Shown here: positions 35,628 through 51,198 of the stretch, piece after piece | Numbering within the stretch: position 1 is the stretch's first letter | Layout: each line of letters starts with the position of its first letter | Origin: Pseudonocardia broussonetiae | Lineage (GTDB): Bacteria; Actinomycetota; Actinomycetes; Mycobacteriales; Pseudonocardiaceae | Direction of reading: 5' to 3' | Length of the DNA stretch: 64,000 nucleotides | Assembly (NCBI RefSeq): GCF_013155125.1 | Contig: NZ_CP053564.1 | Span: 3,045,501 to 3,109,500, forward strand | Notes under the pieces: model-generated | Told to the model about the DNA's origin: nothing | Databases searched by the model: none | The model's input: the letters and a program-made list of their open reading frames with translations, nothing else | Made by a program: the position numbers and the translations under genes

Positions 35628-35740
35628 CCACGTCCTCAGCTCTGCCGTCATCGGCATGCCCCGGAACCCGCGCCCGACCGCGGTGTCCTGTCCGTCCTCG
35701 TCCTGCGTGCAGGGCGGGGGTCGCACGAGGGGCGCTCACC

Positions 35741-35755: not shown

Positions 35756-35925
35756 GCGATCCGTTCCGTTCACTCGTTCGAGTAACGCTCGCGCTCACCC
35801 CAGCGAGCATGTCGCCGAGCGTGAGCACGCCACGCCGGCAGTAGGCCGAACGGATTGACGCGGCAGTTCGGGGACGAGGGGATCGACATGGGTGATCAGC
35901 GGATCCGGGACCGGAGGACGTGACC

Positions 35926-37347
35926 GTGGACGACGTCGTGCGGCTGTCGGTCGTGTCTGCCGTCGCCGGTCGCTACCGACGGTCACTGGCCGTCCTCGTG
36001 GTGATCGGCGCGCTGCTGGGGTCCGCGGCGTGGCTGGTGCTCGCGCCGGGGTGGACCGCGGCCAGCGAGGTGCTGCTGATCGGGTCGGTCGAGGAGGAGG
36101 AGATCGCCGCCGAGGCGCAGATCGCGTCGAGCCTGACCGTGCTCGACCGCACCGCGCAGGACGTCGGGCGCGGCGGCACCGGCGCCGACCTGCGGGGCAG
36201 CGTGCAGGCGTCCGTGGTGGAGGGCAGCGTCGTGCGGATCGCGGCGACCGCCGGCACCCCCGCCGAGGCGGCGCGCCTCGCCGAGTCGGCCACCCGCTCG
36301 TACATGGAGTTCTCCGCCGAGCTCGTCGGCCAGGCCGCGAGCGCGGCGACCGCGGTGCTCGACCGCCGCCGCGAGGACCTCGAGAAGCGCATCGACGAGA
36401 TCCGGGGCGACATCACGACGCTGCAGGGCTCACAGGCCGTGACCGCGGCGACCCCTGACGGCGTGCGGGCCCGCGCCGAGCTGGACCGGCTCGGCGACAG
36501 CCTGACCAGCACGACCACGGAGATGCAGGACGTGGAGGGCCGCGCGCAGGAGGCCGCGGCCGAGGCCGCGGCGGGCCAGGGCCGGTTCGCGGTGCTGGAG
36601 TCGGCCGTGCCGGTCGGCGCGGCGTCGCCGACGTTCGTGCAGTCCGTCGTCGGAGGGGCACTGCTGCTCCCGCTGCTCGGGCTGGTCGCGCTGCTGGTGG
36701 CCCGGCACACCGACCGGCGCCTGCGCGACCCGCACCGCATCGGCGAGGCGCTGGGCGCCCCGCTGCTGGCCGACCCGCCGCTCGCGGTGGCCACGGCCGA
36801 CGGCGACCGGCCGGCCGCACCGCGCGGTCCCGTGCGGCGCGTCGGCGCGGCCCTGCGCGCGCTGCGGCACCCGGCGGCCCTGGTGGACGCCCTGCGCGGC
36901 GACGGGTCGTGGGACCCCGGAGCGCCGGCCGACCGACCGGAGGACCCCGTGCGGCTGCGCCGCGTGCTCGACCGGGCGGTCCCCGCGGTGCCGGACGCGC
37001 GCACGGTGCTGCTCGTCCCCGCCGCCGACCCGTTCGTGCGACGCGCCGCGGAGGCGGTCGCCGACGGACGCGACCCGCGGCCCGACGTCGTCGAGGTCGA
37101 CCTGGACCGGCCGCGCCCCGATCTCGGGGACGGCCCGGTGGCGGCCGTCGTCGTCGTCGCGGTGGGTACCGCCACGGCCTGGCAGCTCCTCGGCGTGGCC
37201 GCGGCGCTCGCCGAGGCGGGAACGGCGCTGCGCGGGGTCGTCGCGGTGGCGCCCGCGGTGTCGTCGCCGGACGACGACCCGGCGCCCGGGGAACCGGCCG
37301 TCGACGGCGCGGAGCCGACCGACGCGGCGCTGGCGGGCACGTCGTGA
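35926..37347 (+). CDS. Wzz-like polysaccharide co-polymerase with degenerate cytosolic domain
   Basis: This 473-residue protein has a first helix (about 20-42), an extracytoplasmic region with a coiled-coil (LDRRREDLEKRIDEIRGDIT), a second helix (about 240-262) and a long cytosolic domain. The N-terminal WTAASEVLLIG segment fits Wzz/CapA chain-length regulators. The cytosolic part (ARTVLLVPAADPFVRRAAEAV, VVEVDLDRPRPD) looks like a BY-kinase remnant without Walker A. GTG 35926 has GGAGG at 8 bases; GTG 35920 is too close. It is the first gene of the long operon, and its stop overlaps the next Wzz-like gene. Confidence 0.82.
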   Translation: MDDVVRLSVVSAVAGRYRRSLAVLVVIGALLGSAAWLVLAPGWTAASEVLLIGSVEEEEIAAEAQIASSLTVLDRTAQDVGRGGTGADLRGSVQASVVEGSVVRIAATAGTPAEAARLAESATRSYMEFSAELVGQAASAATAVLDRRREDLEKRIDEIRGDITTLQGSQAVTAATPDGVRARAELDRLGDSLTSTTTEMQDVEGRAQEAAAEAAAGQGRFAVLESAVPVGAASPTFVQSVVGGALLLPLLGLVALLVARHTDRRLRDPHRIGEALGAPLLADPPLAVATADGDRPAAPRGPVRRVGAALRALRHPAALVDALRGDGSWDPGAPADRPEDPVRLRRVLDRAVPAVPDARTVLLVPAADPFVRRAAEAVADGRDPRPDVVEVDLDRPRPDLGDGPVAAVVVVAVGTATAWQLLGVAAALAEAGTALRGVVAVAPAVSSPDDDPAPGEPAVDGAEPTDAALAGTS

Positions 37348-39029
37348 GCACCCCGACGGCCACCGCGCCCCAGCCCCTGGTCGACCTGAGCGGCCTGGCC
37401 GCCGGGCTCCGCTGGCGCCGCCGCACCTGGCTGGGCCTGGCCCTGCTCGGCCTGCTCCTCGGCGTCGCGAGCACGGTGGTGCTGCCCGCCGGCAGCACGG
37501 CCGTCACCCGCGTGTACGTGGCGCACGAGGAGGAGTCGTTCACCAACGCGACGACGATCGGTGAGACCGACGTCGCGCTGTTCGAGACCACGCAGGTGGC
37601 CGCGCGGGCTCTCGACGTGCTCGGCACCACCGACGTCCGCCCGCAGGACCTGCTGGGTGACTACCGGGTCCGGTCGGTCGCGGCGAACATCCTGGAGCTG
37701 ACGGTGACCGGGCGCGACGGCCCCGACGCGCTGGCCAGGGCGCAGGCCCTCGCCGAGGCCTACATCGCCACGCACGTCGCCCGCATCCAGGCCGCCGCCG
37801 ACGCGGAGGCCGCCGCGCTCTCCGAGCGGCGCGCCACGGCCCGGTCGCAGCTCGACGAGCTGGGCGACCAGATCGCCGACGTCGCCGCACAGGCCGCGAC
37901 ACCGGCGACGGCCGCCCAGCTCGAGGCGCTCTACGCCGCCCGGGCGGGTCTCGACGGGCAGATCCAGGACCTCGGGCAGCGGGCCGAGGAGGCCGGCATC
38001 GGCGCGCCGCGGGTCGCCGCGGGGACGACGATCGTGGACGCGCCGCGGATCTCCGGGCGCTCGCCGCTCGTCGCCGCGGGCATCGCGGGCGCGGTGGGGC
38101 TGCTGCTCGGGCTGGGGCTCGGGCTGGGCCTCGCGCTCGTCGGAGCCGTCGTCGCGGACCGCCCGGTGCTGCGCCGCGACGTCGCCGCGCACCTCGGGGC
38201 GTCGGTCGTCGCCCAGCTGCCCGCTCCGCTGCGCGGGCCGTCGCGGCTGTGGCGGCGGTCCCGGCCGGTGTCGGAGCGGCGGCGGGCGGCGGCCGTCCTC
38301 GCCCGGCTCGTCACGACGGCGCCCGGTCCCGTGTCGCTGCTGGAGCTGGGCTGCGCCCGGCTCGCGGCCTCGCTCGCCGCCGACATCGCGGCCGAGCTCG
38401 CCGTCGACCACGACGTCGTCGTCGTCGACGACCTGCCCGGCCGCGAGGTGCAGGCACTGGGCGTGGAGGCCCCGGTCGAGGTCGTCGACGGCGCAGCGCA
38501 CCCGACCGTTCCGGCTGCGGAGGGCACCCTCCACCTCGGGGTGGGCTCGGCCGGGCCCGGCACGTCGTGGACCGACCTCGCGCGGCTCGGCGGCGAGACG
38601 CTGCTGGTGGTGCGGGCCGGGGCGGAGTCGACGGCCCGGCTGCACGAGGTGGCGCGGCAGCTCGCGGACGTCGGCATCCACGTCCTCGGCGTCGTGCTCG
38701 TGCACCCGGATCCGCGCGACCGCACCGACGGCACCCTCTGGGACGGCCTGCACCACGCCCTGCGCGGCCGGGCGGCGGCGGCGGAGCGGCACCCCGACGA
38801 GCTGGTGCTCGTGCCCGCGGCCGACCCCGCGGCCCAGGAAGACGCGGACGGCGGCGGGAACGGTGCCGGGGACGACAGGACGACGGACCGCGGGACGAGC
38901 AAGCGGACGAAGAACGGCGGGACGAGGAACGGCGCGGGCGGGAACGGCGCCGCGGAGAAGAACGGCACGAGGAACGGGACGGATCCGGCCGTGGGCGTCA
39001 CGGCGGGCGATGGCGTGGAGGTCACGTGA
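37344..39029 (+). CDS. Wzz-like protein with degenerate BY-kinase-like domain and hydrophilic tail
   Basis: This 561-residue protein has two membrane helices (about 27-50 and 242-270) flanking an extracytoplasmic region with a coiled-coil (SERRATARSQLDELGDQIAD). A cytosolic domain follows that follows the BY-kinase plan: a hydrophobic strand, LASLAADIAAELAVDHDVVVVDDLP. The Walker A Gly-Lys-Ser/Thr is absent and Walker A' is only VVVVDD, so kinase activity is unlikely. The C-terminus is an Asn/Gly/Arg/Lys-rich repetitive tail of about 50 residues (RNGAGGNGAAEKNGTRNG). In the family, such tails often carry Tyr clusters; here there is no Tyr. It overlaps both neighbours by 4 bases. Confidence 0.82.
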   Translation: MSTPTATAPQPLVDLSGLAAGLRWRRRTWLGLALLGLLLGVASTVVLPAGSTAVTRVYVAHEEESFTNATTIGETDVALFETTQVAARALDVLGTTDVRPQDLLGDYRVRSVAANILELTVTGRDGPDALARAQALAEAYIATHVARIQAAADAEAAALSERRATARSQLDELGDQIADVAAQAATPATAAQLEALYAARAGLDGQIQDLGQRAEEAGIGAPRVAAGTTIVDAPRISGRSPLVAAGIAGAVGLLLGLGLGLGLALVGAVVADRPVLRRDVAAHLGASVVAQLPAPLRGPSRLWRRSRPVSERRRAAAVLARLVTTAPGPVSLLELGCARLAASLAADIAAELAVDHDVVVVDDLPGREVQALGVEAPVEVVDGAAHPTVPAAEGTLHLGVGSAGPGTSWTDLARLGGETLLVVRAGAESTARLHEVARQLADVGIHVLGVVLVHPDPRDRTDGTLWDGLHHALRGRAAAAERHPDELVLVPAADPAAQEDADGGGNGAGDDRTTDRGTSKRTKNGGTRNGAGGNGAAEKNGTRNGTDPAVGVTAGDGVEVT

Positions 39030-40354
39030 ACGTCACACTGTTCGGACTCGGCTACGTCGGGTCGGTCACCGCCACGTGCCTGGCGAGTCGCGGGCACCAC
39101 GTCGTCGGCGTCGACACCGACCCCGGCAAGGTGGCGGCGCTCAACGCCGGCGTCCCGCCGGTCCTGGAGGCCGGACTCGACGCGCTGCTCGTCGACGTCG
39201 TCGCCCGTGGCGCCCTGCGGGCCACCGACTCGGTGCGCGACGCGCTCGCCGACTCCGACGTCTCGCTCATCTGCGTCGGCACGCCGTCGGCGCACAACGG
39301 CAGCACCGACCTGCGGCAGGTCGAACGGGTGGTGCGCGAGATCGGGTCCGTGCTGGCCGGCTCGACGCGGCCGCACACCGTGGTGGTCCGCTCGACGGTG
39401 CCGCCCGGCACGGTCGAGGAGGTCGTCGCGCCGCTGCTCGAGGAGGCGTCGGGCCGGCGCATCGGCGACGACCTGCAGGTCGCGATGTGCCCGGAGTTCC
39501 TGCGCGAGGGCACGAGCGTGGCCGACTTCTTCGACCCGCCGTTCCTGGTGGTCGGCGGCTCGCCCGGAGCGGCGGCCGTGGTGCGCGAGCTGTTCGGGTT
39601 CGTGCGCGGCCCCGTGCACGAGGTGGAGCTCCGCTCGGCGGAGAGCCTCAAGTACGCCTGCAACGCCTTCCACGCGCTCAAGGTGTCGTTCACCAACGAG
39701 CTGTCCCGGCTCTACCGGCTGCTCGACGTCGACAGCCGGGAGGTGATGGAGGTCTTCGTCGGCGACCGCCAGCTCAACATCTCGCCGGCCTACCTGCGGC
39801 CCGGCTTCGCGTTCGGCGGCTCCTGCCTGCCCAAGGACCTGCGCAGCCTGCTGCACCTGGCCCGGATGAACTGCGTCGACCTGCCGGTGCTGCAGGGCGC
39901 GCTCGCGTCCAACGAGATGGTCGTGCGCGACGTGGCCGAGCGCGTCCTGGACGCCGTCGAGTCCGGCGGCGGCCAGAACCGCCGCGTGGCACTGCTCGGG
40001 CTGTCGTTCAAGCACAACACCGACGACCTGCGGGAGAGCCCGAACGTCGCGCTCGCCGAGATGATGCTCGGCAAGGGCCTGGACGTGCGGATACACGATC
40101 CGCACGTCAACACGGCGATGCTCACCGGGGCGAACCTGCGCTACGTCCACGCCCGCCTGCCGCACCTGCAGAAGGTGCTCCACGACGACGCCGCCGACGC
40201 CCTGCGCGACGCGCAGGTGGTGCTGGTCTCCACCAGCGACCCGTCCGTCGTCGCCACCGTGCTGGCCGCCGCGCCGCCGGTGGTCATCGACCTCGACGGC
40301 CGCCTCGGCCGCTCCGTCGAGTCCCTCGCCGGCTACCAGGGGGTGGGGTGGTGA
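39026..40354 (+). CDS. AlgD-like GDP-mannose 6-dehydrogenase (nucleotide-sugar dehydrogenase)
   Basis: This 442-residue enzyme oxidises a nucleotide hexose to the uronic acid with two NAD+. It has the Rossmann start NVTLFGLGYVGSVTATCLA, VRSTVPPGTVEEVV, and PEFLREG. The catalytic Cys lies in PGFAFGGSCLPKDLRSL (about C267). Then come LLGLSFKHNTDDLRESPNVA and a final aromatic Trp. Active-site spacing, the RPGFAFGGSCLPKD motif and the closing Trp match Pseudomonas AlgD (GDP-mannose to GDP-mannuronate) better than UDP-glucose dehydrogenase, though the substrate should be tested. It lies between Wzz-like and GT4 genes, with overlapping stops, indicating a uronate in the polymer. Confidence 0.9.
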   Translation: MNVTLFGLGYVGSVTATCLASRGHHVVGVDTDPGKVAALNAGVPPVLEAGLDALLVDVVARGALRATDSVRDALADSDVSLICVGTPSAHNGSTDLRQVERVVREIGSVLAGSTRPHTVVVRSTVPPGTVEEVVAPLLEEASGRRIGDDLQVAMCPEFLREGTSVADFFDPPFLVVGGSPGAAAVVRELFGFVRGPVHEVELRSAESLKYACNAFHALKVSFTNELSRLYRLLDVDSREVMEVFVGDRQLNISPAYLRPGFAFGGSCLPKDLRSLLHLARMNCVDLPVLQGALASNEMVVRDVAERVLDAVESGGGQNRRVALLGLSFKHNTDDLRESPNVALAEMMLGKGLDVRIHDPHVNTAMLTGANLRYVHARLPHLQKVLHDDAADALRDAQVVLVSTSDPSVVATVLAAAPPVVIDLDGRLGRSVESLAGYQGVGW

Positions 40355-41544
40355 GCGCCCGCGGGAAGCACGTCTGCATCGTCGTCCAGAACCTCCCGGT
40401 GCCCTTCGACCGGCGGGTCTGGCTGGAGTGCCGGGCACTGCGGGACGCGGGCTACACCGTGTCCGTCGTCTGCCCGAAGGGTCCGGGGGACCCCGCGTTC
40501 GAGGAGCTGGAGGGGGTGGCGCTGCACAAGTACCGCGCCTTCCCACCGATCACACGCAAGATCATGTTCGTCGCCGAGTACCTGTGGTCGATCCTCGCCA
40601 CCTTCGTGATGCTGACGCGGGTGTGGCGGCGGGAGCCGATCACCGTCGTGCAGGTCTGCAACCCGCCGGACGTGCTGTGGGTGGCGGTGCTGCCGTTCCT
40701 GCTGCGCGGCGCGCGCATGGTCTACGACCAGCACGACCTGTGCCCGGAGCTGTACCTGTCGCGGTTCGGCGGCTCCACCGGCCTGCCCTACCGGGCGCTG
40801 CAGCTCGCGGAGCGGGTCACCTACCTGCTGGCCGCGCACGTGATCTCCACCAACGACTCCTACCGGGAGGTGGCGCTCACGCGCGGGCGCAAGCGGCCCG
40901 CGGACGTCACGGTGGTGCGGACCGGGCCCGACCCGGAGCGGATGCGCCGCGTCGACGAGGACGAGGAGCTCCGTCGCGGCCACCCGTTCCTGCTGGTCTA
41001 CCTCGGGGTCATGGGCCCGCAGGACGGGGTCGACCACGCACTGCGCGCGATGCACCAGATCGTGCACGTGCACGGGCGCACCGACGTCGCGCTCACCCTG
41101 ATCGGCGACGGCGACTCGGGCGCCGACCTGCGCCGCCTGGCCGAGGACCTCGAGCTCGGCGAGCACGTCCACTTCACCGGCCGCGCTCCCGACGCGCTCG
41201 TCGCGACGCTGCTGTCGACCGCCGACATCGGTCTGTCGCCGGACCCGCGCAACCCGCTCAACGACGTGTCGACCATGAACAAGACCATGGAGTACATGGC
41301 GTTCGAGCTGCCGGTCGTCGCGTACGACCTGGTGGAGACGCGGGTCTCGGCGGCCGGTGCCGCCGTGTACGCCGAGCCCAACCGCGTCGACGTCTACGCC
41401 GCGGCGATCCTCGAGCTGCTCGGTGACGAGGTGCGCCGCAAGGAGATGGGCGAGGCGGGTCGCCGCCGCGTCGAGGACCTCCTGGCGTGGCGCCACCAGA
41501 TCCCGCCGTACGTCGACGTGTACGACCGGCTGACCGGGCGATAG
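40351..41544 (+). CDS. GT4 family glycosyltransferase
   Basis: This 397-residue GT-B enzyme has CIVVQNLPVPFDRRVWLECR at the N-terminus, typical of WbuB/WcaI-type enzymes. It continues with VVQVCNPPDVLWVAVLPFLL, VYDQHDLCPELYLSRFG, VVRTGPDPERMRR, LVYLGVMGPQDGVDHALRAM, TLIGDGDSGADL, and the donor region NDVSTMNKTMEYMAFELPVV. It probably adds a sugar to a lipid-linked intermediate in the uronate-glycan pathway. GTG 40351 overlaps the dehydrogenase stop; the asparagine synthase-like gene follows after 12 bases. Confidence 0.9.
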   Translation: MSARGKHVCIVVQNLPVPFDRRVWLECRALRDAGYTVSVVCPKGPGDPAFEELEGVALHKYRAFPPITRKIMFVAEYLWSILATFVMLTRVWRREPITVVQVCNPPDVLWVAVLPFLLRGARMVYDQHDLCPELYLSRFGGSTGLPYRALQLAERVTYLLAAHVISTNDSYREVALTRGRKRPADVTVVRTGPDPERMRRVDEDEELRRGHPFLLVYLGVMGPQDGVDHALRAMHQIVHVHGRTDVALTLIGDGDSGADLRRLAEDLELGEHVHFTGRAPDALVATLLSTADIGLSPDPRNPLNDVSTMNKTMEYMAFELPVVAYDLVETRVSAAGAAVYAEPNRVDVYAAAILELLGDEVRRKEMGEAGRRRVEDLLAWRHQIPPYVDVYDRLTGR

Positions 41545-41556
41545 GGAGCACGGACG

Positions 41557-43512
41557 ATGTGCGGTGTCGCAGGCACCTACCTCTGGCCGGGCGGCGGCGC
41601 GCTCACGCGGCGGATGACCGCCGCGGTCGCCCACCGCGGCCCCGACGGGTCGGGCCTCTACCGCCACCGGGCCGGGCCCGGTGAGGTGCACCTCGGGCAT
41701 CGGCGGCTCTCGATCGTCGACCTGTCGCCGACCGGGGCGCAGCCGATGGTGTCCGACGGCCTCGCGCTGACCTACAACGGCGAGCTGTACAACGCCGCCG
41801 AGCTGCGGACGGACCTGCGGGCGCTGGGCGTGCGGTTCCGCGGCACCTCCGACACGGAGGTGCTGCTGGAGGCCTGGCGCCGCTGGGGGACGGCGTGCCT
41901 GCCGCGGCTGCGCGGGATGTTCGCGTTCGGCGTCTTCGACGAGCGGACCGGCGAGCTGGTGCTGGTGCGCGACCAGCTGGGCATCAAGCCGCTGTTCCTG
42001 GTGCGCCGCGACGGCGGGGTCGCGTTCGCCTCGGAGCTCAAGGCGCTCGCGGGCTCGCTCGGCCCCGGCCTGACCGTCGACGACACCTCGCTGGTGGCGT
42101 CGCTGCTCTACTACTGGGTGCCCGACAGCCGGTGCATGTTCCGGGAGGCGGAGAAGCTGCAGCCGGGCACCTGGCTGCGGCTGAGCCCGGACGGCCGGTC
42201 CGCGAGCGGCACGTGGTACTCGCTGCGCGACACCGCCGAGGAGGCCGCGGCCGACCCGCACGGCGGCCCGGACCTGCACGACGTGATCGCCGGGTCGACC
42301 CGCCGGCACCTCACCGCCGACGTCCCGGTGGCCACGTTCCTCTCCGGCGGGCTCGACTCCAGCTACCTCACCGCCATCGCGGCGCAGCAGAACCCGGGCA
42401 TCGCCGCGTACACCGTCGGCTTCCGCGCGCAGGACGCCCGCTTCGAGGCGATGCCCGACGACCTGCGCTACGCCCGCAGCGTCGCGCGGCGGTACGGCGT
42501 CGACCTGCACGAGATCGAGATCGCGCCGGACGTCACCGAGCTGCTGCCGCTGCTCGCCCACCACCTCGACGAGCCGATCGGCGACCCGGCGGCGATCAAC
42601 ACCTACCTCATCTGCCGCGCCGCGCGCGAGGCCGGGGTGCGGGTGATGCTCTCGGGGATGGGGGCCGACGAGCTGTTCGGCGGGTACCGCAAGCACCTGG
42701 CCAACACCCTCGCGGTCCGCTACCGGGGCCTACCGGCGGGCCTGCGCGGGGCGATCGGGGCCGGGGTGGGACGGCTGCCGGTGGCGAGCGCCCGCCGCGG
42801 CTACCGGTCCGTGCGGTTCGCCAAGCGCTTCCTGAGCTTCGCCGACCTGCCCGAGGAGACCGCCTTCCGGCGCAGCTACACGATGTACGACCGCGGCGAC
42901 CTGCTCGACCTGGTGCACCCCGATCTCGCGGGACCGGTCGACGAGGTGCTGGCCGAGCACGCCGAGGTCTACGCCGACAGCGCGCTGACCGACCACGTGA
43001 ACCGGATGTGCCTGACCGACGCCCGGCTGTTCCTGCCCGGGCTGAACCTCACTTACACCGACCGCGCCAGCATGGCGGCGTCGGTCGAGGTGCGGGTGCC
43101 GTTCGTGGACGTCGAGGTGGTGCGGGCCGCGTTCCGGATCCCGGGGAACCGCAAGATCGTCGGGCGCCAGGGCAAGGCCGCGCTCAAGCGGGCCGCGCTC
43201 GGCACCCTGCCCCGCGAGATCGTCCACCGGCCCAAGGGCCTGTTCAGCGCCCCGCTGCGGGCCTGGATGCGCCGCGACCTGGCCACCGAGGTGCGCGAGG
43301 TCGTGCACGAGGGGCTGCTGGTGTCGTCGGGCCTGCTCTCGCGCGACGCGCTCGTCCGGCTCGTCGCCGAGGACGCGGCGGGCCGGGAGGACCACTCCAA
43401 GCACCTGTGGCACGTGCTCACGCTCGAGCACTGGTACCGCGACGCCGTCGCCCTCGGCGCGGGTGGCGCCGTCGGCGCCCCGTCCGGCGACACGACCGCC
43501 TCCCTGGCCTGA
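41557..43512 (+). CDS. asnB: Asparagine synthase (glutamine-hydrolysing) family amidotransferase
   Basis: This 651-residue protein has the N-terminal glutaminase nucleophile Cys2 (MCGVAGTYLWPGG) with HRGPDGSG and YNGELYN. A synthase domain follows with the ATP pyrophosphatase loop VPVATFLSGGLDSS (about residue 260) and LSGMGADELFGGYRKH (about 365). All catalytic residues of AsnB appear present. In exopolysaccharide loci, AsnB-like proteins are thought to amidate uronic acids or to act on a sugar carboxylate, and the AlgD-like gene two genes upstream supports this. Lasso-peptide cyclases are homologous but lack an active glutaminase. ATG 41557 has GGGAGC upstream. Confidence 0.9.
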   Translation: MCGVAGTYLWPGGGALTRRMTAAVAHRGPDGSGLYRHRAGPGEVHLGHRRLSIVDLSPTGAQPMVSDGLALTYNGELYNAAELRTDLRALGVRFRGTSDTEVLLEAWRRWGTACLPRLRGMFAFGVFDERTGELVLVRDQLGIKPLFLVRRDGGVAFASELKALAGSLGPGLTVDDTSLVASLLYYWVPDSRCMFREAEKLQPGTWLRLSPDGRSASGTWYSLRDTAEEAAADPHGGPDLHDVIAGSTRRHLTADVPVATFLSGGLDSSYLTAIAAQQNPGIAAYTVGFRAQDARFEAMPDDLRYARSVARRYGVDLHEIEIAPDVTELLPLLAHHLDEPIGDPAAINTYLICRAAREAGVRVMLSGMGADELFGGYRKHLANTLAVRYRGLPAGLRGAIGAGVGRLPVASARRGYRSVRFAKRFLSFADLPEETAFRRSYTMYDRGDLLDLVHPDLAGPVDEVLAEHAEVYADSALTDHVNRMCLTDARLFLPGLNLTYTDRASMAASVEVRVPFVDVEVVRAAFRIPGNRKIVGRQGKAALKRAALGTLPREIVHRPKGLFSAPLRAWMRRDLATEVREVVHEGLLVSSGLLSRDALVRLVAEDAAGREDHSKHLWHVLTLEHWYRDAVALGAGGAVGAPSGDTTASLA

Positions 43513-43525
43513 GAGGAACCGACCG

Positions 43526-45742
43526 ATGAAGCAGGTCGTGCAGAACTACCGCTCGGGCGAGCTCGCGCTGCTCGAGGTGCCCGAGCCGCGGTGCCGGCCG
43601 GGCGGGGTGCTCGTCCGCACCCGGTACTCGCTGATCTCCACCGGCACCGAGCTGATGAAGGTCGGCGAGGCGAGCATGTCGCTGCTCGCGAAGGCCCGGG
43701 CGCGCCCCGACCAGGTCGCGAAGGTCCTGCAGAGCGCGTCGACGGTCGGCGTGGCCGCCACCTACCGCAAGGTCACCACGAAGCTCGACTCCTGGACCCC
43801 GCTGGGCTACTCGCTGGCGGGCGTCGTCGAGGAGGTGGGCGAGGGCGTCACCGAGGTGGTGGCCGGGGACCTCGTGGCCTGCGCGGGCAACGAGCACGCG
43901 CTGCACGGCGAGCTGAACTGGGTGCCGCGCAACCTGTTCTGCCGCGTGCCGGCCGGGGTCGCGGCCGAGCACGCCGCCTTCGGCACCGTCGGCGCGATCG
44001 CCATGCAGGGCGTGCGCCGCGGCGAGCCGCAGCTCGGCGAGGCCGCGCTGGTGATCGGGCTCGGGTTGGTCGGGCAGCTCGTCGTGCAGCTGCTCGTGGC
44101 GGCGGGCGTGCGGGTCGTGGGCGTCGACCCGGACCCGGGGCGGTGCGCGCTGGCCGAGTCGCTCGGCGCGCTCGTGTGCGCCGACCCGGGGTCGGGCGTC
44201 GTCGACGCGGCCGTCGCGGAGATCACCGGGGGCCACGGCGCCGACCAGGTGTACCTGGCCGCGGGCGGCGGCAGCAACCAGCCCGTCGAGCTGGCCGCCG
44301 CGCTGGCGCGGGACCGCGGGCGGGTCGTCGACATCGGCAAGTGCCGCCTCGACCTGCCGTGGAACGCCTACTACGAGAAGGAGCTCGACGTCCGGTTCTC
44401 CCGCTCGTACGGTCCGGGCCGCTACGACCCGTCCTACGAGCTCGAGGGCCGTGACTACCCGATCGGCTACGTGCGCTGGACCGAGCGCCGCAACCTCGAG
44501 TGCGTGCTGGACCTGATGGCCCGCGGTCGGCTCGACGTGGCCCCGCTGACCAGCCACGTCGCCCCGTTCGACGACGCGGTCGCGACCTACCGCGCGCTGG
44601 GGTCGGGCTCCCTGTCGGCCGTCGCGGTCCTGTTCCGCTACGCCGACGCGCAGCCCGTCGAGCCGCCGGTGACCGCCCCGCCCGCCGTCACCGCCGTCCC
44701 CGCCGGGCGCCCCGCGCCGCCGGTGCCGGGCGGGCGTCCGGTCCGCCTCGCGTTCGTGGGCGCCGGGAACTACGCCTCGTCGATGCTGCTGCCGCACCTC
44801 GCCGGGCGCCCCGACGTGGAGCTGGCCCGGGTGGTCACCACGTCGGCGCTGTCGGCGGCCAACGCGCAGCGGCGGTTCGGCTTCGCCGCGTGCGGCACCG
44901 ACGTCGAGGCCGTGTTCGACGACCCGGCGGTCGACGCGGTCGTCGTCGCCACCCGGCACGCCACGCACGCGGCGCTCACCCGCCGCGCCCTGCTCGCCGG
45001 CCGGGCCGTGTTCGTGGAGAAGCCGCTCGCGCTGACGCCCGACGAGCTGGACTCGGTCCTCGACGCCGTCGCCGAGTCGGGCAACGACCGGGTCCAGGTC
45101 GGGTTCAACCGCCGCTTCGCGCCGCTGCTGGTGGCGGCCCGCGAGCGGTTCGGGCGCCGCACCGGCCCCGCCACGGTCCGCTACCTGGTCAACGCGGGGC
45201 GACTCGAGCACGGCAGCTGGTACCTCGACGCCGCGGGGGAGGGGTCGCGGTTCACCGGGGAGGGCGGCCACTTCGTCGACACCGTGAGCTGGCTGCTGGG
45301 CGCCTCCCCGGAGTCGGTCTTCGCCACCGGCACCCCCGGCGGCACCGACCTGCAGGTCCTGCTCGGCTACCCGGACGGCTCGAACGCGGTGATCACCTAC
45401 TCCACCGCGGGTCACAGCGCGTTCCCCAAGGAGACCCTGGACCTGCTCGCCGACGGCCGGGTGCTGCACCTGGACGACTTCGCCCGCGCGGCCGTGCACG
45501 GGCGCGGGCGCTGGTCCTCGCCGCGGATCCCGCGCGGCCGGGACAAGGGCCAGGCCGCGCAGCTCGAGGCCTTCCTCGCGGCCGTGCGCTCCGGCGGCCC
45601 GATGCCGGTGCCGCTCACCGACCTCGTCGCCACCACCCGCGCCACACTCGCCGTCGCGACCAGCCTCGCGTCCGGGGTGCCGGTGCGGCCGGCCGGGGCG
45701 GTGCGCGCGCCGCTGCCGGAGCCGGTGGGGGCGCTGCCGTGA
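43526..45742 (+). CDS. Two-domain oxidoreductase (MDR dehydrogenase plus Gfo/Idh/MocA)
   Basis: This 738-residue fusion has an N-terminal zinc-type alcohol dehydrogenase fold (MDR; residues 1-370), with STGTELMKVGEASMSLL, LAGVVEEVGEGVTEVVAGDLV, GTVGAIAMQGVRRG, and ALVIGLGLVGQLVVQLLVAAG. A Gfo/Idh/MocA domain follows from about residue 405 (RLAFVGAGNYASSMLLPHL, FVEKPLALTPDELDSVLDA, GFNRRFAPL). Such bi-domain oxidoreductases recur beside AsnB and heparinase II/III genes in exopolysaccharide clusters; the reaction is not known but is thought to involve uronate or sugar redox chemistry. ATG 43526 is preceded by GAGAGGAA. Its stop overlaps the heparinase-type gene. Confidence 0.92.
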   Translation: MKQVVQNYRSGELALLEVPEPRCRPGGVLVRTRYSLISTGTELMKVGEASMSLLAKARARPDQVAKVLQSASTVGVAATYRKVTTKLDSWTPLGYSLAGVVEEVGEGVTEVVAGDLVACAGNEHALHGELNWVPRNLFCRVPAGVAAEHAAFGTVGAIAMQGVRRGEPQLGEAALVIGLGLVGQLVVQLLVAAGVRVVGVDPDPGRCALAESLGALVCADPGSGVVDAAVAEITGGHGADQVYLAAGGGSNQPVELAAALARDRGRVVDIGKCRLDLPWNAYYEKELDVRFSRSYGPGRYDPSYELEGRDYPIGYVRWTERRNLECVLDLMARGRLDVAPLTSHVAPFDDAVATYRALGSGSLSAVAVLFRYADAQPVEPPVTAPPAVTAVPAGRPAPPVPGGRPVRLAFVGAGNYASSMLLPHLAGRPDVELARVVTTSALSAANAQRRFGFAACGTDVEAVFDDPAVDAVVVATRHATHAALTRRALLAGRAVFVEKPLALTPDELDSVLDAVAESGNDRVQVGFNRRFAPLLVAARERFGRRTGPATVRYLVNAGRLEHGSWYLDAAGEGSRFTGEGGHFVDTVSWLLGASPESVFATGTPGGTDLQVLLGYPDGSNAVITYSTAGHSAFPKETLDLLADGRVLHLDDFARAAVHGRGRWSSPRIPRGRDKGQAAQLEAFLAAVRSGGPMPVPLTDLVATTRATLAVATSLASGVPVRPAGAVRAPLPEPVGALP

Positions 45743-47751
45743 CCGGCGCGCCCGCGGGCGGCGCCGGGTGGTACCTCCGGCGGCTCTCGCGGATGGGCCC
45801 CGCCGAGGTCGCCGGGCGGGTCGTCACCGCGCGGCGCGTCCACCAGTGGCGGCGCGAGGCGGACCGGTCCGACGCGGTGCTGCCGCGGCGCCGGTTCACC
45901 GCGACCCTGCCGGCCGGGCTCGCCGACCTGCTCCCGCTGGAGCCCGCCGCGGGGCTGGTCGGCACGGCCGACCGGCTGATGGACGGCGTCGCGGAGTACT
46001 TCGGGGTGCTGCGCGACGACATGGTCGACCCGGACTGGTCCCGCGACCCGAAGACGGGCCTGCGCAGTCCCTCGGACCTCTACGCCTTCGACGTCCCCTA
46101 CCGCGACGAGCAGGCCGTGGGCGACGTCAAGCAGCTCTGGGAGCCCTCGCGCCACCAGCACCTCACCGTGCTGGCCGCGGCGTACGCGCTGACCGGCGAC
46201 GAGCGCTACGCCCACCGGGTCGCCGAGCACCTCGCGTCGTGGTGGGCGGCCAACCCCCCGATGCGGGGCGTGCACTGGACCAGCGGGATCGAGCTGGGCA
46301 TCCGGCTGATCTCCTGGGCGTGGACGCGGCGCCTGCTCGACGGCTGGCCGGGCGCCCCCGCCCTGTTCGAGCACAACCCGGAGGCGCTGCACCAGATCCG
46401 CTTCCACCAGCGCTGGCTCGAGGCGTTCCCCAGCCGGGGGACCTCGGCCAACAACCACGTCGTCGCGGAGCTGGCCGGGCAGGTCGTGGCGTCCTGCGCG
46501 TTCGGCTGGTTCCCCGAGTCGGGCCGCTGGGGCCGTGCGGCGATGCAGTCGCTGGAGGTGCACCTGGCCCGCAACACCTTCCCGTCCGGGCTGAACCGGG
46601 AGCAGGCCTCCGAGTACCACGGCCTGGTCCTGGAGCTGGGGATCGCGGCCGTCGTCGAGGCCGACGCGGCCGGGCTGCCCGTGCCGGGCCCGGTGTGGGC
46701 GACGCTGTCGCGCATGTCCGACGCGCTGGCCGCCGTCGTGGACGCGTCGGGGCGCCCGCCCCGCCAGGGCGACGGCGACGACGGGCGCGGCCTCGTCCTC
46801 GACGGCGACGGCACCGACCGCTGGGCCTCGCTGCTCTCCACCGGGGCCGCGCTGTTCGGCGCGCTGCCCTGGTGGCCCACCCCCCTCGGCGACGACCTGG
46901 CGACGCCGCTGCTCACGGCGCTCGCCCACCCGCGGCCCCCGCTCACCGGGCGGCCCGCGACGCGCCCGCACCACTTCGCCGACGCCGGGCTGACGCTGCT
47001 GCGCGCCCCCGCGTGCGGCAGCGCCGCGGAGCTGTGGTGCCGCTGCGATGGCGGCCCGCACGGCTTCGGCGCGATCGCCGCCCACGCCCACGCCGACGCG
47101 CTGTCGGTGGAGGTGCGCCACGGCGGCGTCGACGTCCTCGCCGACCCCGGCACCTACTGCTACCACGGCGAGCCGGAGTGGCGGGCCTGGTTCCGCTCCA
47201 CGCTGGGCCACAACACCCTCGAGCTGCACGGCACCGACCAGAGCCGCTCCGGCGGGCCGTTCCTGTGGATGCGCCACGCGCGCAGCCGCGTCCTGCTCGC
47301 CGAGGACCGGCCGGACGGCACCTCGCGCTGGCGGGCCGAGCACGACGGCTACGCCGCCCGCGGGCGCCCGGTCGTGCACCGCCGCACCGTCGAGCTCGAC
47401 GCCGCCGCGCGCGAGCTGCGCATCCACGACGAGGTCCGCGGGCCCGGGCGGCAGCCGTGCCGGCTCGCCCTGCACCTGGGCCCGGCCGTCACGGCCGAGC
47501 TGGCCGGCCACCGCGTCCTGCTGAGCTGGACCGGCGGCCCGTCGCACGACGGGCTGCTGGAGCTGCCCGGCGAGCTCACCTGGACCGCGCACCGCGGCGA
47601 GACCGACCCGCCGCGCGGCTGGTACTCGCCCGGCTTCGGCCGCCGCGAGCCCGCCGTGACCCTGATCGGCTCCGGCGAGGTCGGCCCGTCCGGGCTCGCG
47701 ACCGTCCTGTGCTTCGCCGACGTGCCCCGCCCGGAGAGGACCCACCCGTGA
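45739..47751 (+). CDS. Heparinase II/III family protein (alginate lyase-like)
   Basis: This 670-residue protein has an all-alpha toroid N-terminal half (SRHQHLTVLAAAYALTGD, PSRGTSANNHVVAELAGQVV, with the NNH residues) and a C-terminal beta-domain. The beta-domain includes HAHADALSVEVRHGGVDVLA (about residue 449) and YCYHGEPEWRAWFRSTLGHNT. The family uses Tyr/His residues for beta-elimination of uronic-acid-containing glycans. No signal peptide is visible, so it may act on a cytoplasmic or lipid-linked intermediate, or assist synthesis in a non-lytic way, as proposed for cluster members elsewhere. It overlaps both neighbours (GTGA). Its presence supports a uronate polymer. Confidence 0.88.
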   Translation: MTGAPAGGAGWYLRRLSRMGPAEVAGRVVTARRVHQWRREADRSDAVLPRRRFTATLPAGLADLLPLEPAAGLVGTADRLMDGVAEYFGVLRDDMVDPDWSRDPKTGLRSPSDLYAFDVPYRDEQAVGDVKQLWEPSRHQHLTVLAAAYALTGDERYAHRVAEHLASWWAANPPMRGVHWTSGIELGIRLISWAWTRRLLDGWPGAPALFEHNPEALHQIRFHQRWLEAFPSRGTSANNHVVAELAGQVVASCAFGWFPESGRWGRAAMQSLEVHLARNTFPSGLNREQASEYHGLVLELGIAAVVEADAAGLPVPGPVWATLSRMSDALAAVVDASGRPPRQGDGDDGRGLVLDGDGTDRWASLLSTGAALFGALPWWPTPLGDDLATPLLTALAHPRPPLTGRPATRPHHFADAGLTLLRAPACGSAAELWCRCDGGPHGFGAIAAHAHADALSVEVRHGGVDVLADPGTYCYHGEPEWRAWFRSTLGHNTLELHGTDQSRSGGPFLWMRHARSRVLLAEDRPDGTSRWRAEHDGYAARGRPVVHRRTVELDAAARELRIHDEVRGPGRQPCRLALHLGPAVTAELAGHRVLLSWTGGPSHDGLLELPGELTWTAHRGETDPPRGWYSPGFGRREPAVTLIGSGEVGPSGLATVLCFADVPRPERTHP

Positions 47752-48653
47752 ACGAGAGCGACGTCCGAGAGTTCTGGAACGCCCACCCCTGCGGCGACCA
47801 CATCGTCGGCGGGCTGCACGGCGGCTTCGCCGACGACCACGAGCGCTTCTTCGCCGCCTACGACGCCTGGCGCTACGACCAGGAGGGCCACATCCCGGCG
47901 TGCCTGGACCACTTCGACTTCCGCGACCGGCGGGTGCTGGAGATCGGGCTCGGGCAGGGCGCGGAGTCCGAGCAGCTGATCCGCCGCGGGGCCCGCTGGT
48001 CGGGGCTCGACCTCACCCCCGAGTCCGTCGAGCGCGTCCGCACCCGGCTGGCGCTGCGCCGCCTGCCGCACGTCGACCTGCGCCAGGGCAGCGCGACCGC
48101 GATCCCGTGGCCCGACGACTCGTTCGACGTCGTGTTCAGCCACGGGGTGCTGCACCACGTACCGGACATCCGGGCGGCGCAGGCCGAGATCCACCGCGTG
48201 CTGCGGCCCGGCGGCACGCTGGTGGCGATGGTGTACGCGCGCCGGTCGCTCAACTACCAGGTGAGCATCCGCGTGCTGCGCCGCGCGGTCCTCGCCGCCG
48301 CCTACCCGCTGCGCCGCACGCGGCTCATGCGGGCGGCGCCGCCGCTGCTGCGCGCGCACCTCGACGGGGCCGAGCGGGCCGGGCTGCGCCGCTACCTGGA
48401 CCTCGACGCGTTCACCCACCGCAGCACCGACGGCCCGCACAACCCCTACGCCCGGGTGTACTCCCCGCGCGAGGTGGTCGCCGACTTCCCCGACTTCACA
48501 CTCGTGGAGTCGTTCCGCCGCTACCTGCACGCCCCCCCGCTGCCGGTGCGCAGGCTGCCCGGGGCCGCGCGGCTCGAACGGCACCTCGGCTGGCACCTCT
48601 GGCTGCGGCTGCAGGCCAGGGGCGGGCCGATCACCCCGGCGGGGGCGGCATGA
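47748..48653 (+). CDS. Class I SAM-dependent methyltransferase
   Basis: This 301-residue protein has VREFWNAHPCGDHIVGG at the N-terminus, a SAM-binding VLEIGLGQGAESEQLIRRGA motif, and FDVVFSHGVLHHVPDIRAAQAEIHRVLRPGG. This places it among the UbiE/Coq5-like (Methyltransf_11) enzymes. Within this operon it could O-methylate a sugar residue. GTG 47748 overlaps the heparinase-type stop and has GGAGAGGA upstream. Its stop overlaps the polymerase start (ATGA). The C-terminal FRRYLHAPPLPVRRLPGAARL segment is not conserved in my reading. The acceptor is unknown. Confidence 0.88.
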   Translation: MNESDVREFWNAHPCGDHIVGGLHGGFADDHERFFAAYDAWRYDQEGHIPACLDHFDFRDRRVLEIGLGQGAESEQLIRRGARWSGLDLTPESVERVRTRLALRRLPHVDLRQGSATAIPWPDDSFDVVFSHGVLHHVPDIRAAQAEIHRVLRPGGTLVAMVYARRSLNYQVSIRVLRRAVLAAAYPLRRTRLMRAAPPLLRAHLDGAERAGLRRYLDLDAFTHRSTDGPHNPYARVYSPREVVADFPDFTLVESFRRYLHAPPLPVRRLPGAARLERHLGWHLWLRLQARGGPITPAGAA

Positions 48654-49876
48654 CGGCCCCGGTCCCGGCGGCGGAGCCGGCCGACCCACCCCGCCTGCTC
48701 CCGGTGGTCTGGGGGCTCCTCCTGGTCAACGTCCTGGGCTTCCTGCCCAGCGCCGGCACCGTCATCCCGATCCCCAAGGCGGGCGGGCAGGTGATCACGA
48801 TGGGGGCGCTGGCCGTCGCGTTCGGGCTGGCGCTGCTCATGAACCCGCGGATCCGGGTGCGGCCCTCGGCGTACCTGGTGCTGCTCGCCGCGCTGGCGCT
48901 GGTGGCCGTCGCGTCGAGCATGCTGCTGGAGTCCGGCGCCGGGGCGCTGCTGCGCACGGCGCGGCTCGTGGTGTTCGTGGCGACGCTGTGGCTGATCGGG
49001 TGCTGGTGGCGCCCGGACCTCGTGCTGGTGCGCACCCACCTGCGCGCGATCGGGGGCGTGCTGCTGGTCGTGCTGCTGGGCATCGTCGTCACGCCGGGTC
49101 CGGCGTTCTCCGGCCCGGACGGGCGGCTGGTCGGGGCGCTGTGGCCGATCCCCGCGCCGCAGGTCGGGCAGTACTGCGCGGTGGCCATCGGGCTCGCGGT
49201 GCTCCTCGGCATCGCGGGGCGGCTGCGCGGGCGCGACGTGCTGCTCGTGGTGGCGCCCGCCGTCGTCATGCTCCTGCTCAGCCACACCCGCACCGCGCTC
49301 GCCGGGCTCGTCGCCGGGCTCGCCGTCGCCGTGCTGAGCATGGTGGCGTCCGACGGGCGCGCCCGCCGCGCCCTGCTCGGGGCCGCCGCCGTCGGCCTGG
49401 TCGGGGCGGTGGTGGTCGGGGACGCGGTGCTGACCTGGCTCGCCCGCGGCCAGGACGCCGACGAGCTGGTCGGGCTCACCGGGCGCCAGAAGGTGTGGGA
49501 CGCGCTGCTCGCGGTCGACCGCACACCGCGCGAGCAGTTGCTCGGGATCGGGCTCACCGACAAGTCGTTCCGGGGTCTGGCCATCGACAGCAGCTGGCTC
49601 TCGGCCTACCACGAGCTCGGGATCCTCGGCGTGGCGATCACGGCCGCGATGCTGCTGGTGCTGCTCGGGGTGGCGCTGCTGCGCCCGCCCGGGCCCGCGC
49701 GGGCGTGCGCACTGTTCCTGGTCGTCTACTGCGCGGTGGCGTCCTACACCGAGGTCGGTCTGAGCGATGCGTCGGCCTACCTGCTGCACCTGGCCGTGGC
49801 GGCGTCGCTGCTGGTCCCGGGCCCGTCCCGGGCGGTGGCACCGCCCGGCCCGGTCGCGGTGCCGGTCGCGCCGTGA
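48650..49876 (+). CDS. Second Wzy-like O-antigen polymerase/ligase
   Basis: This 408-residue polytopic protein has about ten to eleven helices. The region LTGRQKVWDALLAVDRTPREQLLGIG, then DSSWLSAYHELGILGVAI, is the periplasmic-loop signature of Wzy_C/O-antigen ligase proteins, with the conserved His in YHELG. Upstream, LLSHTRTALAGLVAGLAVAV with its Arg fits the family. It would polymerise the uronate-containing repeats flipped by one of the Wzx proteins. The 4-base overlaps (ATGA, GTGA) fix both ends. It is not closely similar to the polymerase at 16099, which suggests two distinct repeats. Confidence 0.86.
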   Translation: MTAPVPAAEPADPPRLLPVVWGLLLVNVLGFLPSAGTVIPIPKAGGQVITMGALAVAFGLALLMNPRIRVRPSAYLVLLAALALVAVASSMLLESGAGALLRTARLVVFVATLWLIGCWWRPDLVLVRTHLRAIGGVLLVVLLGIVVTPGPAFSGPDGRLVGALWPIPAPQVGQYCAVAIGLAVLLGIAGRLRGRDVLLVVAPAVVMLLLSHTRTALAGLVAGLAVAVLSMVASDGRARRALLGAAAVGLVGAVVVGDAVLTWLARGQDADELVGLTGRQKVWDALLAVDRTPREQLLGIGLTDKSFRGLAIDSSWLSAYHELGILGVAITAAMLLVLLGVALLRPPGPARACALFLVVYCAVASYTEVGLSDASAYLLHLAVAASLLVPGPSRAVAPPGPVAVPVAP

Positions 49877-51198
49877 CGGCCCCGCTGCGCGTGCTCGTCG
49901 TCCACAACCGGTACCGGTCGGGGCAGCCCAGCGGGGAGGACCGGGTCGTCGACCGCGACGTCGAGCTGCTCACCGCGGGCGGGCACGCCGTCGAGCGCTA
50001 CGAGCGGCGCAGCGACGACATCGCCGCGCTGCCGCTCGCGCACCGCGCCGCGGTGCCGCTGCTCGTGCCGTGGAACCCCGCGGTCCGCGCCGACCTGCGG
50101 GCGCGCCTGCGCGCGTCGGCGCCCGACGTGGTGCACGTGCACAACGTCTTCCCGCTGCTGTCGGCGTCGGTCGTGGCGGCCTGCGCTGACGAGGGCGTGC
50201 CGGTCGTCGCGACGCTGCACAACTACCTGCAGGTGTGCCCCTCGGGCACGCTGCACCGCGACGGCGGGCCCTGCCGCGCCTGCGTCGGGCGCTCCCCGCT
50301 CCCGGCCGTCGCGCACGGCTGCTACCGCGGCTCCCGGATCGCCACGGTGCCGCTCGCGATCGGCCACGCCGTCAACCGCCGCCGCTGGTGGGACGGGGTC
50401 GACACCTTCCTCTGCATCTCCGCCGCCCAGCGCCGCGAGCTGGTGGACGCGGGGATGCCCGCCGGCAAGCTCGTCGTGCGCCACAACGTGGTGCCCGAGC
50501 CCGCGCAGCGCCGTGCGGGCCCCGGTGAGCACGTGCTGTTCCTGGGACGGCTCACGGCGGAGAAGGGCGTGCCGCTGCTCATGGCGGCGTGGGACGAGAT
50601 CGCCGCGTCGGGCGGGATCGGGCTGCCGCTCGTGCTAGCCGGCGCCGGGCCGCTGGAGGCGCAGGTGCGCGCGTGGGCCGCGGGGCGCGACGACGTGCGC
50701 TTCCACGGCCTGCTCGACGCCGGCGCGTGCGCCACCCTCACCGCCCGCGCCGCCGCCGTGGCCGTGCCCTCGACGTGGCTGGAGGCGTTCGGCCTCGTGG
50801 TGGTGGAGGCGATGGCTGCGGGCGTGCCGGTGGTGGCGGCGGGGCACGGTGCGCCCGCCGAGCTGGTCGACGACGGCGTGACCGGCCTGCTGCACGGGCC
50901 GGGCGACGCCGGGTCGCTGGCCGCGGCCCTGCGCGCCGCCGTGGCCGATCCGGACCGCAACGCGGCCATGGGGGAGGCGGGCAGGCGGCGCTACGAGGCG
51001 GGGTTCACCCCTGCGGCCGGGCTCGACGCGCTCGAGCGGTGCTACCGGGAGGCGGTCGCCCGGGGTCGGGGATCGGGGCATCGGGGGAGGGGCGATCAGG
51101 GCACGGCCGGGCGCGGATCCGGGAGGCGCTCGTTGCCGATGCCCCGCGTCGCCGACGTGACGGTCCGGCCGACCAGCCAGCCGCCGAGCCGGCCGTAG
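49873..51198 (+). CDS. GT4 family glycosyltransferase with Arg/Gly-rich C-terminal extension
   Basis: This 441-residue GT-B enzyme has RVLVVHNRYRSGQPSGEDRV, DVVHVHNVFPLLSASVVAAC, VPVVATLHNYLQVCPSGTL, VLFLGRLTAEKGVPLLMAAW, and the donor region STWLEAFGLVVVEAMAAGVP. It resembles enzymes that add sugars during exopolysaccharide assembly. The last 45-50 residues are Arg/Gly/Pro-rich and unlike the family; they overlap the 3' end of the convergent GT2 gene by 103 bases. A recent stop loss or read-through extension is likely. GTG 49873 overlaps the polymerase stop. Confidence 0.87.
   Translation: MTAPLRVLVVHNRYRSGQPSGEDRVVDRDVELLTAGGHAVERYERRSDDIAALPLAHRAAVPLLVPWNPAVRADLRARLRASAPDVVHVHNVFPLLSASVVAACADEGVPVVATLHNYLQVCPSGTLHRDGGPCRACVGRSPLPAVAHGCYRGSRIATVPLAIGHAVNRRRWWDGVDTFLCISAAQRRELVDAGMPAGKLVVRHNVVPEPAQRRAGPGEHVLFLGRLTAEKGVPLLMAAWDEIAASGGIGLPLVLAGAGPLEAQVRAWAAGRDDVRFHGLLDAGACATLTARAAAVAVPSTWLEAFGLVVVEAMAAGVPVVAAGHGAPAELVDDGVTGLLHGPGDAGSLAAALRAAVADPDRNAAMGEAGRRRYEAGFTPAAGLDALERCYREAVARGRGSGHRGRGDQGTAGRGSGRRSLPMPRVADVTVRPTSQPPSRP

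Follow-up and report, generated by a model that had tools for sequence, protein, structure and literature searches.

A putative cytoplasmic module for manno-configured uronates in a Pseudonocardia polysaccharide operon

Gene content of the locus

The subject of this study is a predicted polysaccharide operon of Pseudonocardia broussonetiae, together with its neighbors in a stretch of 64,000 nucleotides (the window; C1:3045501-3109500 of the 7.29 Mb assembly). Codon usage predicts 52 genes in the window, 46 of which were taken into a Pfam scan of this stretch; the other six are small open reading frames. The original prediction, made from the DNA sequence, was that genes for an AlgD-like dehydrogenase, an AsnB-type amidotransferase, a two-domain oxidoreductase and a heparinase-type protein form an overlapping series that makes an amidated, alginate-related exopolysaccharide. 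All four genes are indeed present where they had been placed, on the forward strand. According to Pfam they belong to a longer run on that strand (35920-51198), which encodes two Wzz-like proteins, the dehydrogenase, a GT4 glycosyltransferase, the AsnB-type enzyme, the oxidoreductase, the Hepar_II_III protein, a methyltransferase, a Wzy-like protein and another GT4 glycosyltransferase. The series is tight, with overlaps of 4 bases between the second wzz gene and the dehydrogenase gene, 7 between the dehydrogenase and GT4 genes, and 4 between the oxidoreductase and heparinase genes, but overlap does not extend to every junction: 12 bases separate the GT4 from the AsnB gene, and 13 the AsnB from the oxidoreductase gene. 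The GT4 gene between the dehydrogenase and AsnB genes (40348-41544) was absent from the earlier gene list. The features are as follows.

31778..33061, +, Wzx-like flippase candidate, 427 amino acids, 9 hydrophobic segments; weak HfsF match (E 3e-07, far under the cut-off); putative member of the cluster
33052..34158, +, sugar C-methyltransferase type (Methyltransf_13/14); cluster membership suggested by position
34152..35726, -, priming polyprenyl-phosphate sugar transferase (Bac_transf); PF02397 224.7 bits, cut-off 27; inverted here
35920..37347, +, Wzz-like chain-length protein 1; weak EpsF match; relatives in other clusters
37344..39029, +, Wzz-like chain-length protein 2; PF02706 23.3 bits, under the cut-off of 25.5
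39026..40354, +, AlgD-type nucleotide-sugar dehydrogenase, predicted GDP-mannose 6-dehydrogenase; PF03721 186.5 bits, structure match and tree
40348..41544, +, GT4 glycosyltransferase, candidate mannuronosyltransferase; paired with the dehydrogenase gene
41557..43512, +, AsnB-type glutamine amidotransferase, predicted uronate amidation; PF00733 307 bits, TIGR01536
43526..45742, +, two-domain oxidoreductase; MDR half (about residues 1-373) and Gfo/Idh/MocA half (about 403-726), from Pfam and alignments
45739..47751, +, Heparinase II/III (lyase/epimerase) fold protein, no visible signal peptide; PF07940 179.4 bits, PF16889 45.7 bits
47748..48653, +, S-adenosylmethionine-dependent methyltransferase; PF08241 1.5e-25
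48650..49876, +, Wzy/O-antigen-ligase-like polymerase, 11 hydrophobic segments; PF04932 20.8 bits, under the cut-off of 31.7
49873..51198, +, GT4 glycosyltransferase (Pfam), conserved among loci
51096..52064, -, GT2 glycosyltransferase (Pfam); its reading frame and that of 49873-51198 overlap at their ends, by 103 bases
52061..52891, -, methyltransferase (Pfam)
52920..54185, -, polysaccharide pyruvyl transferase; PF04230 8.6e-26
54182..55474, -, second Wzx-like flippase candidate, 430 amino acids, 8 hydrophobic segments; PF13440 at E 0.56 only
55556..57124, -, right-handed beta-helix lipoprotein; signal with lipobox seen by eye

On the reverse strand, the five genes from the GT2 to the beta-helix lipoprotein (51096-57124) probably share the locus with the operon. 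The cluster of Streptomyces sp. KN37 likewise carries an annotated pyruvyl transferase and a beta-helix protein, and in most related loci the beta-helix lipoprotein gene comes after the heparinase gene. The Bac_transf gene, inverted in the window, is co-directional in those Streptomyces loci where it is present. The two Wzx-like candidates (31778-33061 and 54182-55474) share 31% identity over 280 columns.

Conservation across genomes

A pattern scan of species genomes supplied 80 loci, the best 80 of at least 572 relatives and mostly from Streptomyces and its relatives. AlgD-like, AsnB, oxidoreductase and heparinase genes occur together in 58 of the 80, including one alphaproteobacterial metagenome-assembled genome (L089), and because of this co-occurrence we take the array to be more than chance. 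Sixty-six loci are well flanked (at least 7 kb upstream and at least 2.5 kb downstream); 59 of these have an AlgD-like gene, 59 an AsnB gene and 62 a heparinase gene, and both Wzz-like genes, adjacent in the window, are found in 50. Where an AlgD-like gene is found in this subset, AsnB and heparinase genes are both present in 56 of 59 loci, and the heparinase gene stands right behind the oxidoreductase gene in 58. The seven well-flanked loci without an AlgD-like gene are L082, L105, L107, L110, L111, L112 and L114. The pairing of dehydrogenase and GT4 genes is also seen in the proteobacterial loci L089, L096, L097 and L099.

Within the genus, the oxidoreductase is found at 73% identity or more in 8 of 35 other genomes (in one, G006, as a fragment), and at 43% in one more. 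Seven of the eight also have the dehydrogenase at 69% or more, and the eighth (G028) has a 49% copy on the same contig. No further genome among the 35 reaches 69% for the dehydrogenase; one (G034) has a 48% copy without a full oxidoreductase match. In a phylum-wide draw of 396 genomes, an oxidoreductase match at 1e-60 occurs in 30, including the present one.

The dehydrogenase is of AlgD type

The best solved relative of the window dehydrogenase is a GDP-mannose 6-dehydrogenase (1mfz, 369.6 bits); the best UDP-glucose 6-dehydrogenase (3vtf) scores 247.3 bits. In a tree of 40 rows (39 distinct), the protein falls into a 23-row clade with Pseudomonas aeruginosa AlgD (support 100/99; 44% identity over aligned columns), apart from the UDP-glucose and WecC-type enzymes, although the tool cautioned that the joins to the WecC side, where long branches come together, may be spurious. 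In the AlgD clade, positions 217, 252 and 268 (AlgD numbering) are H, N and C, and position 259 is R or K; we take 217, 252 and 259 to be positions of the substrate site. H217 together with R259 (K in a few relatives) is found in the AlgD clade and in none of the UGD or WecC rows, position 217 being L in the UDP-glucose rows and R in the WecC rows. The N at 252 is also present in most WecC rows and corresponds to a gap in the UGD rows, and Y256 of AlgD is replaced by A in the window protein. The best solved match, the clade and the retained AlgD-distinguishing residues uphold the AlgD-like call, and because of the same three lines of comparison GDP-mannose is the likely substrate.

Three further dehydrogenases of this genome exceed the family cut-off; in the tree, two of them group with the UDP-glucose enzymes and the third belongs to the WecC side. 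Besides the window gene, two nucleotide-sugar dehydrogenase genes flank the window within about 11 kb (C1:3034315-3035529 and C1:3116859-3118100); one product falls on the WecC side, and the other is of UDP-glucose type, with Thr at the position of the catalytic Cys.

Donor sugars near the oxidoreductase

The 80 pattern-scan loci were pooled with 20 loci from the phylum (two of them, L135 and L147, short) and four plasmid loci (L032-L035), leaving out KN37. Profile models for the neighbor count were built from these 104 loci themselves, and the class of each dehydrogenase was read from active-site-loop motifs. A nucleotide-sugar dehydrogenase gene lies within 10 kb of the oxidoreductase gene in 71 loci, and is of AlgD type in 64, WecC-like in 7 and of UDP-glucose type alone in none; L101 combines an AlgD-type gene with a UDP-glucose-type gene on the other strand. 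AsnB genes are found within the same distance in 80 of the 104 loci, as are heparinase genes, and when WecB is included (L160, for one, has a nearby WecB gene) a marker of a manno-configured donor is present in 80 loci. A diverse subset of 50 comprises 12 loci with AlgD-type genes, 7 with WecC-like genes and 31 without a dehydrogenase gene, with AsnB in 27 and heparinase in 28; the remaining loci are mostly from Streptomyces and relatives and so are not independent.

The neighboring dehydrogenases are of AlgD type or WecC-like and never of UDP-glucose type alone. Taken with AsnB and, frequently, the heparinase-fold protein, the oxidoreductase has the look of a cytoplasmic module that acts on manno-configured uronates irrespective of the nucleotide. 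Within the limits of the sample, this specific dehydrogenase company across phyla looks new, and it is our main result.

In seven loci (L033, L105, L109, L115, L159, L168 and L171) oxidoreductase and AsnB genes are adjacent and no heparinase gene is seen in the stretch examined, which is short for some; the pair may for this reason be able to stand alone.

The two-domain oxidoreductase and the heparinase-fold protein

The MDR half of the oxidoreductase is without the usual zinc ligands. The GHE of zinc enzymes becomes GYS in the aligned pieces, and the residues of the GYS region as well as S35 and S38 are invariant in 31 relatives; the pairing of Cys with Ser in this half comes from an alignment piece without significance. 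We rejected a zinc-dependent alcohol dehydrogenase for this half on the change from GHE to GYS and a PF08240 score of 20.8, under the cut-off of 23.5. No solved structure covers the whole two-domain protein in the 50 structure-search rows shown, where the best TM-score by query length is 0.40. The nearest named relative among the matches listed is from Pseudonocardia petroleophila (86% identical), and there are at least 7,996 scored database matches, partial relatives possibly included. In Mesobacillus (L036, 4631-8475), the two halves look like separate adjacent genes (zinc-binding alcohol dehydrogenase and Gfo/Idh/MocA) near a sugar uptake system.

The heparinase-fold protein has both the N and C domains of the Hepar_II_III family, the C domain having a single match in the entire genome, and at least 6,234 scored database matches, partial relatives possibly included. 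By sequence, lyases are nearest (HepIII, E 4.6e-46), and the HepC equivalog model of NCBIfam is missed (30.8, cut-off 700). Foldseek also ranks lyases first, and the fold is close to PL17 alginate lyases; no other fold class is among the best rows of the fold searches, an absence that excludes nothing. The His/double-Tyr active site and fold of the dermatan-sulfate-epimerase type are complete. None of 26 aligned members shows a signal-like hydrophobic core, in a check that used start codons and a threshold of our choosing and no positive control. Heparinase III, the PL12 and PL17 lyases and dermatan sulfate epimerase 1 differ from the window protein, which has an N-terminal helix extension where a signal peptide would be and which, in the loci examined, is encoded within an operon for biosynthesis. 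Of the earlier description as a uronate-lyase-fold protein, the fold stands, and a periplasmic role like that of AlgL is unlikely. Because no signal peptide is visible, we suggest that the protein probably acts in the cytoplasm, unlike AlgL. The combination of a full lyase/epimerase active site with no visible signal peptide looks like a new point.

The Streptomyces counterpart

In Streptomyces sp. KN37 the same genes are present, with identities of 74% (AsnB), 72% (oxidoreductase) and 66% (heparinase protein). A counterpart described in Streptomyces coelicolor, SCO0381-SCO0401, is considered here from the accessible portions of the papers cited. Its 21 genes may form a single operon affected by bldA (PMC2000904). 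A published table lists, among others, a glycosyltransferase, a dehydrogenase, a hypothetical protein, two exopolysaccharide-transport genes, an asparagine synthetase, a bi-domain oxidoreductase, a further hypothetical protein and a lipoprotein, and all transcripts are raised in the multinucleated mycelium (PMC3610822); several are lost without the sigma factor SCO4117 (PMC5826349). SCO0382 was predicted to make GDP-mannuronate in an operon for an extracellular polysaccharide (PMC5982138), and was assigned the same reaction elsewhere (PMC6629963).

The window resembles this cluster in the kinds of genes and nearly in their order; it differs in the Wzz pair ahead of the dehydrogenase gene, the inverted priming transferase, the methyltransferase after the heparinase gene, and the position of the beta-helix lipoprotein gene, about 8 kb off and on the other strand. 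SCO0383 and SCO0399 each contain a TTA codon (PMC2000904), whereas none is found in the 18 window genes checked, and we rejected bldA/TTA control for these window genes. The cluster is not new, being a member of a known, uncharacterized actinomycete type, and the mannuronate idea is already in print for S. coelicolor (PMC5982138, PMC6629963).

Proposed pathway and alternatives

On balance, we lean towards the view that the operon makes a surface heteropolysaccharide of the Wzx/Wzy type, in which the AsnB-type enzyme would convert mannuronate to its amide, while the oxidoreductase and the heparinase-fold protein would likely remodel it inside the cell, ahead of export. The AlgD-type enzyme, as its family placement suggests, would oxidize GDP-mannose to GDP-mannuronate, and the neighboring GT4 enzyme would transfer the mannuronate to a lipid-linked unit begun by the Bac_transf enzyme. 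AsnB would then convert the carboxylate to the amide, and the MDR and Gfo/Idh/MocA halves, judging by fold and family, may oxidize and re-reduce a ring hydroxyl of the mannuronate residue. In the fifth and most speculative step, the heparinase-fold protein would remove and return the C5 proton, taking D-manno to L-gulo on the lipid-linked unit, on the model of dermatan sulfate epimerase 1, which does so for glucuronate on its polymer. Finally, Wzx-, Wzy- and Wzz-like proteins would export and polymerize the unit, and the beta-helix lipoprotein would work outside.

For the heparinase-fold protein we prefer, tentatively, the role of a C5-epimerase of the lipid-linked unit, with a lyase as the main rival. 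More conjectural still is the wider proposal of a cytoplasmic uronamide C5-epimerase that, with oxidoreductase and AsnB, might convert lipid-linked D-mannuronate, or in other phyla D-ManNAc uronate, to an L-gulo-type residue bearing an amide, ahead of flipping; it would be a lyase-fold counterpart of dermatan sulfate epimerase inside bacteria of several phyla, annotated as 'alginate lyase'.

The rival departs from this scheme in the fifth step only: a cytoplasmic lyase would trim or edit wrong lipid-linked units or returned chains, and the oxidoreductase would modify the sugar separately. AlgL-type lyases remove stray polymer in the alginate system, a precedent for such a lyase, and lyases lead both the solved relatives and the Foldseek ranking; the placement of the heparinase gene immediately behind the oxidoreductase gene in nearly all AlgD-bearing, well-flanked loci argues against it. 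In Vibrio vulnificus YJ016, according to the accessible portion of one report (PMC6037467), VV0357, annotated as a zinc-binding dehydrogenase, and the heparinase II/III-like VV0358 are encoded close to the capsule cluster, deletion of either abolishes the capsule, and complementation largely restores wild-type phenotypes. Loss of the capsule without the heparinase-like member is unexpected for clean-up, and total loss fits better with a required building step, if the analogy holds; yet the authors of that report themselves pointed to lyases degrading stray polymer. Their polymer differs, and the homology of the two pairs rests on annotation. Overall, a trimming lyase seems to us possible and no better than doubtful.

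Annotation of SCO0381-SCO0401 as a deoxysugar/glycosyltransferase cluster and its listing under secondary metabolism (PMC2000904, PMC3610822; accessible portions) would fit a small secreted glycoside or 'deoxysugar' instead of a polymer. We consider this improbable in view of the two Wzz-like genes, the Wzy-like gene, the priming sugar transferase and the two flippase candidates, and PMC5982138 also takes the cluster to be of the extracellular-polysaccharide type.

The AsnB-type call was upheld by the asparagine synthase model TIGR01536 (412.8, above the cut-off of 267.1), a result that would also suit a plain asparagine synthetase placed in the operon by chance. AsnB-like enzymes amidate uronates in O-antigens. 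Against the chance placement, the genome holds several AsnB-type genes, one of which outscores the window copy (479.7 bits, C1:3837609-3839273); the solved structure nearest to the window enzyme is that of a hydroxyamidotransferase (7ylz, 177.3 bits, with E. coli AsnB at 130.4 bits); and in 74 of the 104 loci the AsnB gene lies within 400 bp of the oxidoreductase gene on the same strand. A misplaced synthetase is therefore unlikely. Floc-forming Zoogloea and Aquincola have a conserved large exopolysaccharide cluster with two asparagine synthetase genes (PMC9012009, accessible portion), a likeness by description to the window; theirs is a PEP-CTERM setting, whereas the window enzyme scores 451.3 with the XrtA/PEP-CTERM amidotransferase model TIGR03108, under the cut-off of 816.9.

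The alg operon of Pseudomonas resembles the window in having a GDP-mannose dehydrogenase of AlgD type as well as proteins with a lyase fold and a beta-helix. In the window, however, there is no Alg8 or Alg44 match among the 46 of 52 genes scanned, a GT4 enzyme and Wzx/Wzy-like export are found, AsnB and the two-domain oxidoreductase are added, and the lyase-fold protein, unlike that of the alg operon, has no visible signal peptide; instead of a secreted AlgL-type lyase we see Hepar_II_III domains and no signal core. An AlgG-like role for the beta-helix lipoprotein was rejected, with 14.9 bits against a model cut-off of 700 and no DPHD, presumably the AlgG motif, visible by eye. GT4 is a retaining family, and because such an enzyme is the partner of the donor gene, we find a heteropolymer with an alpha-linked residue likelier than beta-mannuronan. 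The Wzx/Wzy-like setting of the original prediction is plausible: a strong match identifies the priming sugar-phosphate transferase of such a system, but for Wzx, Wzy and Wzz every match is weak. "Alginate-related", in contrast, fails on the lack of an Alg8/Alg44 match in the 46 of 52 genes scanned and on the pairing with GT4. We consider the originally predicted polymer, an alginate-like polymannuronate bearing amides and built by a Wzy route, very improbable: the AlgD-type enzyme, AsnB, the heparinase fold near PL17 alginate lyases and the nearby beta-helix lipoprotein speak for it, but these two failings, the AlgG score, and the mixed repeat unit implied by two GT4s, a GT2, methyltransferases and a pyruvyl transferase speak against it.

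Several points weigh against the pathway that we favor. The Wzx, Wzy and Wzz matches lie under their cut-offs; the active site of the heparinase-fold protein fails to tell epimerase from lyase, and its sequence is nearest to lyases; and the design of the signal-peptide check counts here too. VV0357 was modelled with two transmembrane helices (PMC6037467), which the window protein does not suggest. SCO0382 has been labelled 'ugd' (PMC2267785, accessible portion), and no reaction is demonstrated for any cluster member in the accessible portions of the open-access literature searched. The label "WecC-like" comes from motifs: when four of these proteins were compared with the NCBIfam UDP-ManNAc dehydrogenase model, L164 and L169 passed its cut-off, and L160 and L171 missed it. 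Among the 104 loci, no heparinase gene is seen in 24 (some at contig edges), no AsnB gene in 24 (including the AlgD-bearing L096, L097 and L099), and no nucleotide-sugar dehydrogenase gene within 10 kb in 33. The sample is dominated by Streptomyces, and the counts are raw, not set against the frequency of dehydrogenase types beside unrelated genes.

Names that state no reaction ('bi-domain-containing oxidoreductase', 'alginate lyase family protein', 'heparinase') are carried by most of the listed relatives of the oxidoreductase and the heparinase-fold protein. Should the two proteins form a cytoplasmic module for tailoring manno-uronates, these names are misleading, and the step could be predicted in many surface polysaccharides. 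The prediction would reach a developmentally regulated Streptomyces cluster whose product we did not find described in the accessible portions of the open-access literature searched, and would provide a bacterial setting for asking what separates lyase from epimerase in the heparinase fold. What the operon offers is a strong test case; as a system it is not of a new kind. The part worth following is the lyase-fold protein, probably cytoplasmic, with its oxidoreductase partner.

Other features of the window

A second polysaccharide cluster lies at 16099-24319 (+), with Wzy-like (PF04932, 58.3 bits), Wzx-like (PF13440, 123.2 bits), GT87 and GT4 proteins; it adjoins a GHL15 'hypothetical glycosyl hydrolase' gene (24330-25505, -; 182.2 bits). 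Three genes for Bac_transf priming sugar transferases occur in the window (6088-6843, 25555-27048 and 34152-35726, all -), which suggests more than one polymer. An HNH endonuclease gene (31072-31614, +) lies within the polysaccharide region, and a 330-amino-acid protein without a Pfam match is encoded at 29744-30736 (+). A DUF4397 protein followed by a sortase is encoded at 11292-12993 (+). At 57233-60231 (+), an ABC transporter is encoded behind an uncharacterized nucleotidyltransferase (PF14907, 134 bits).

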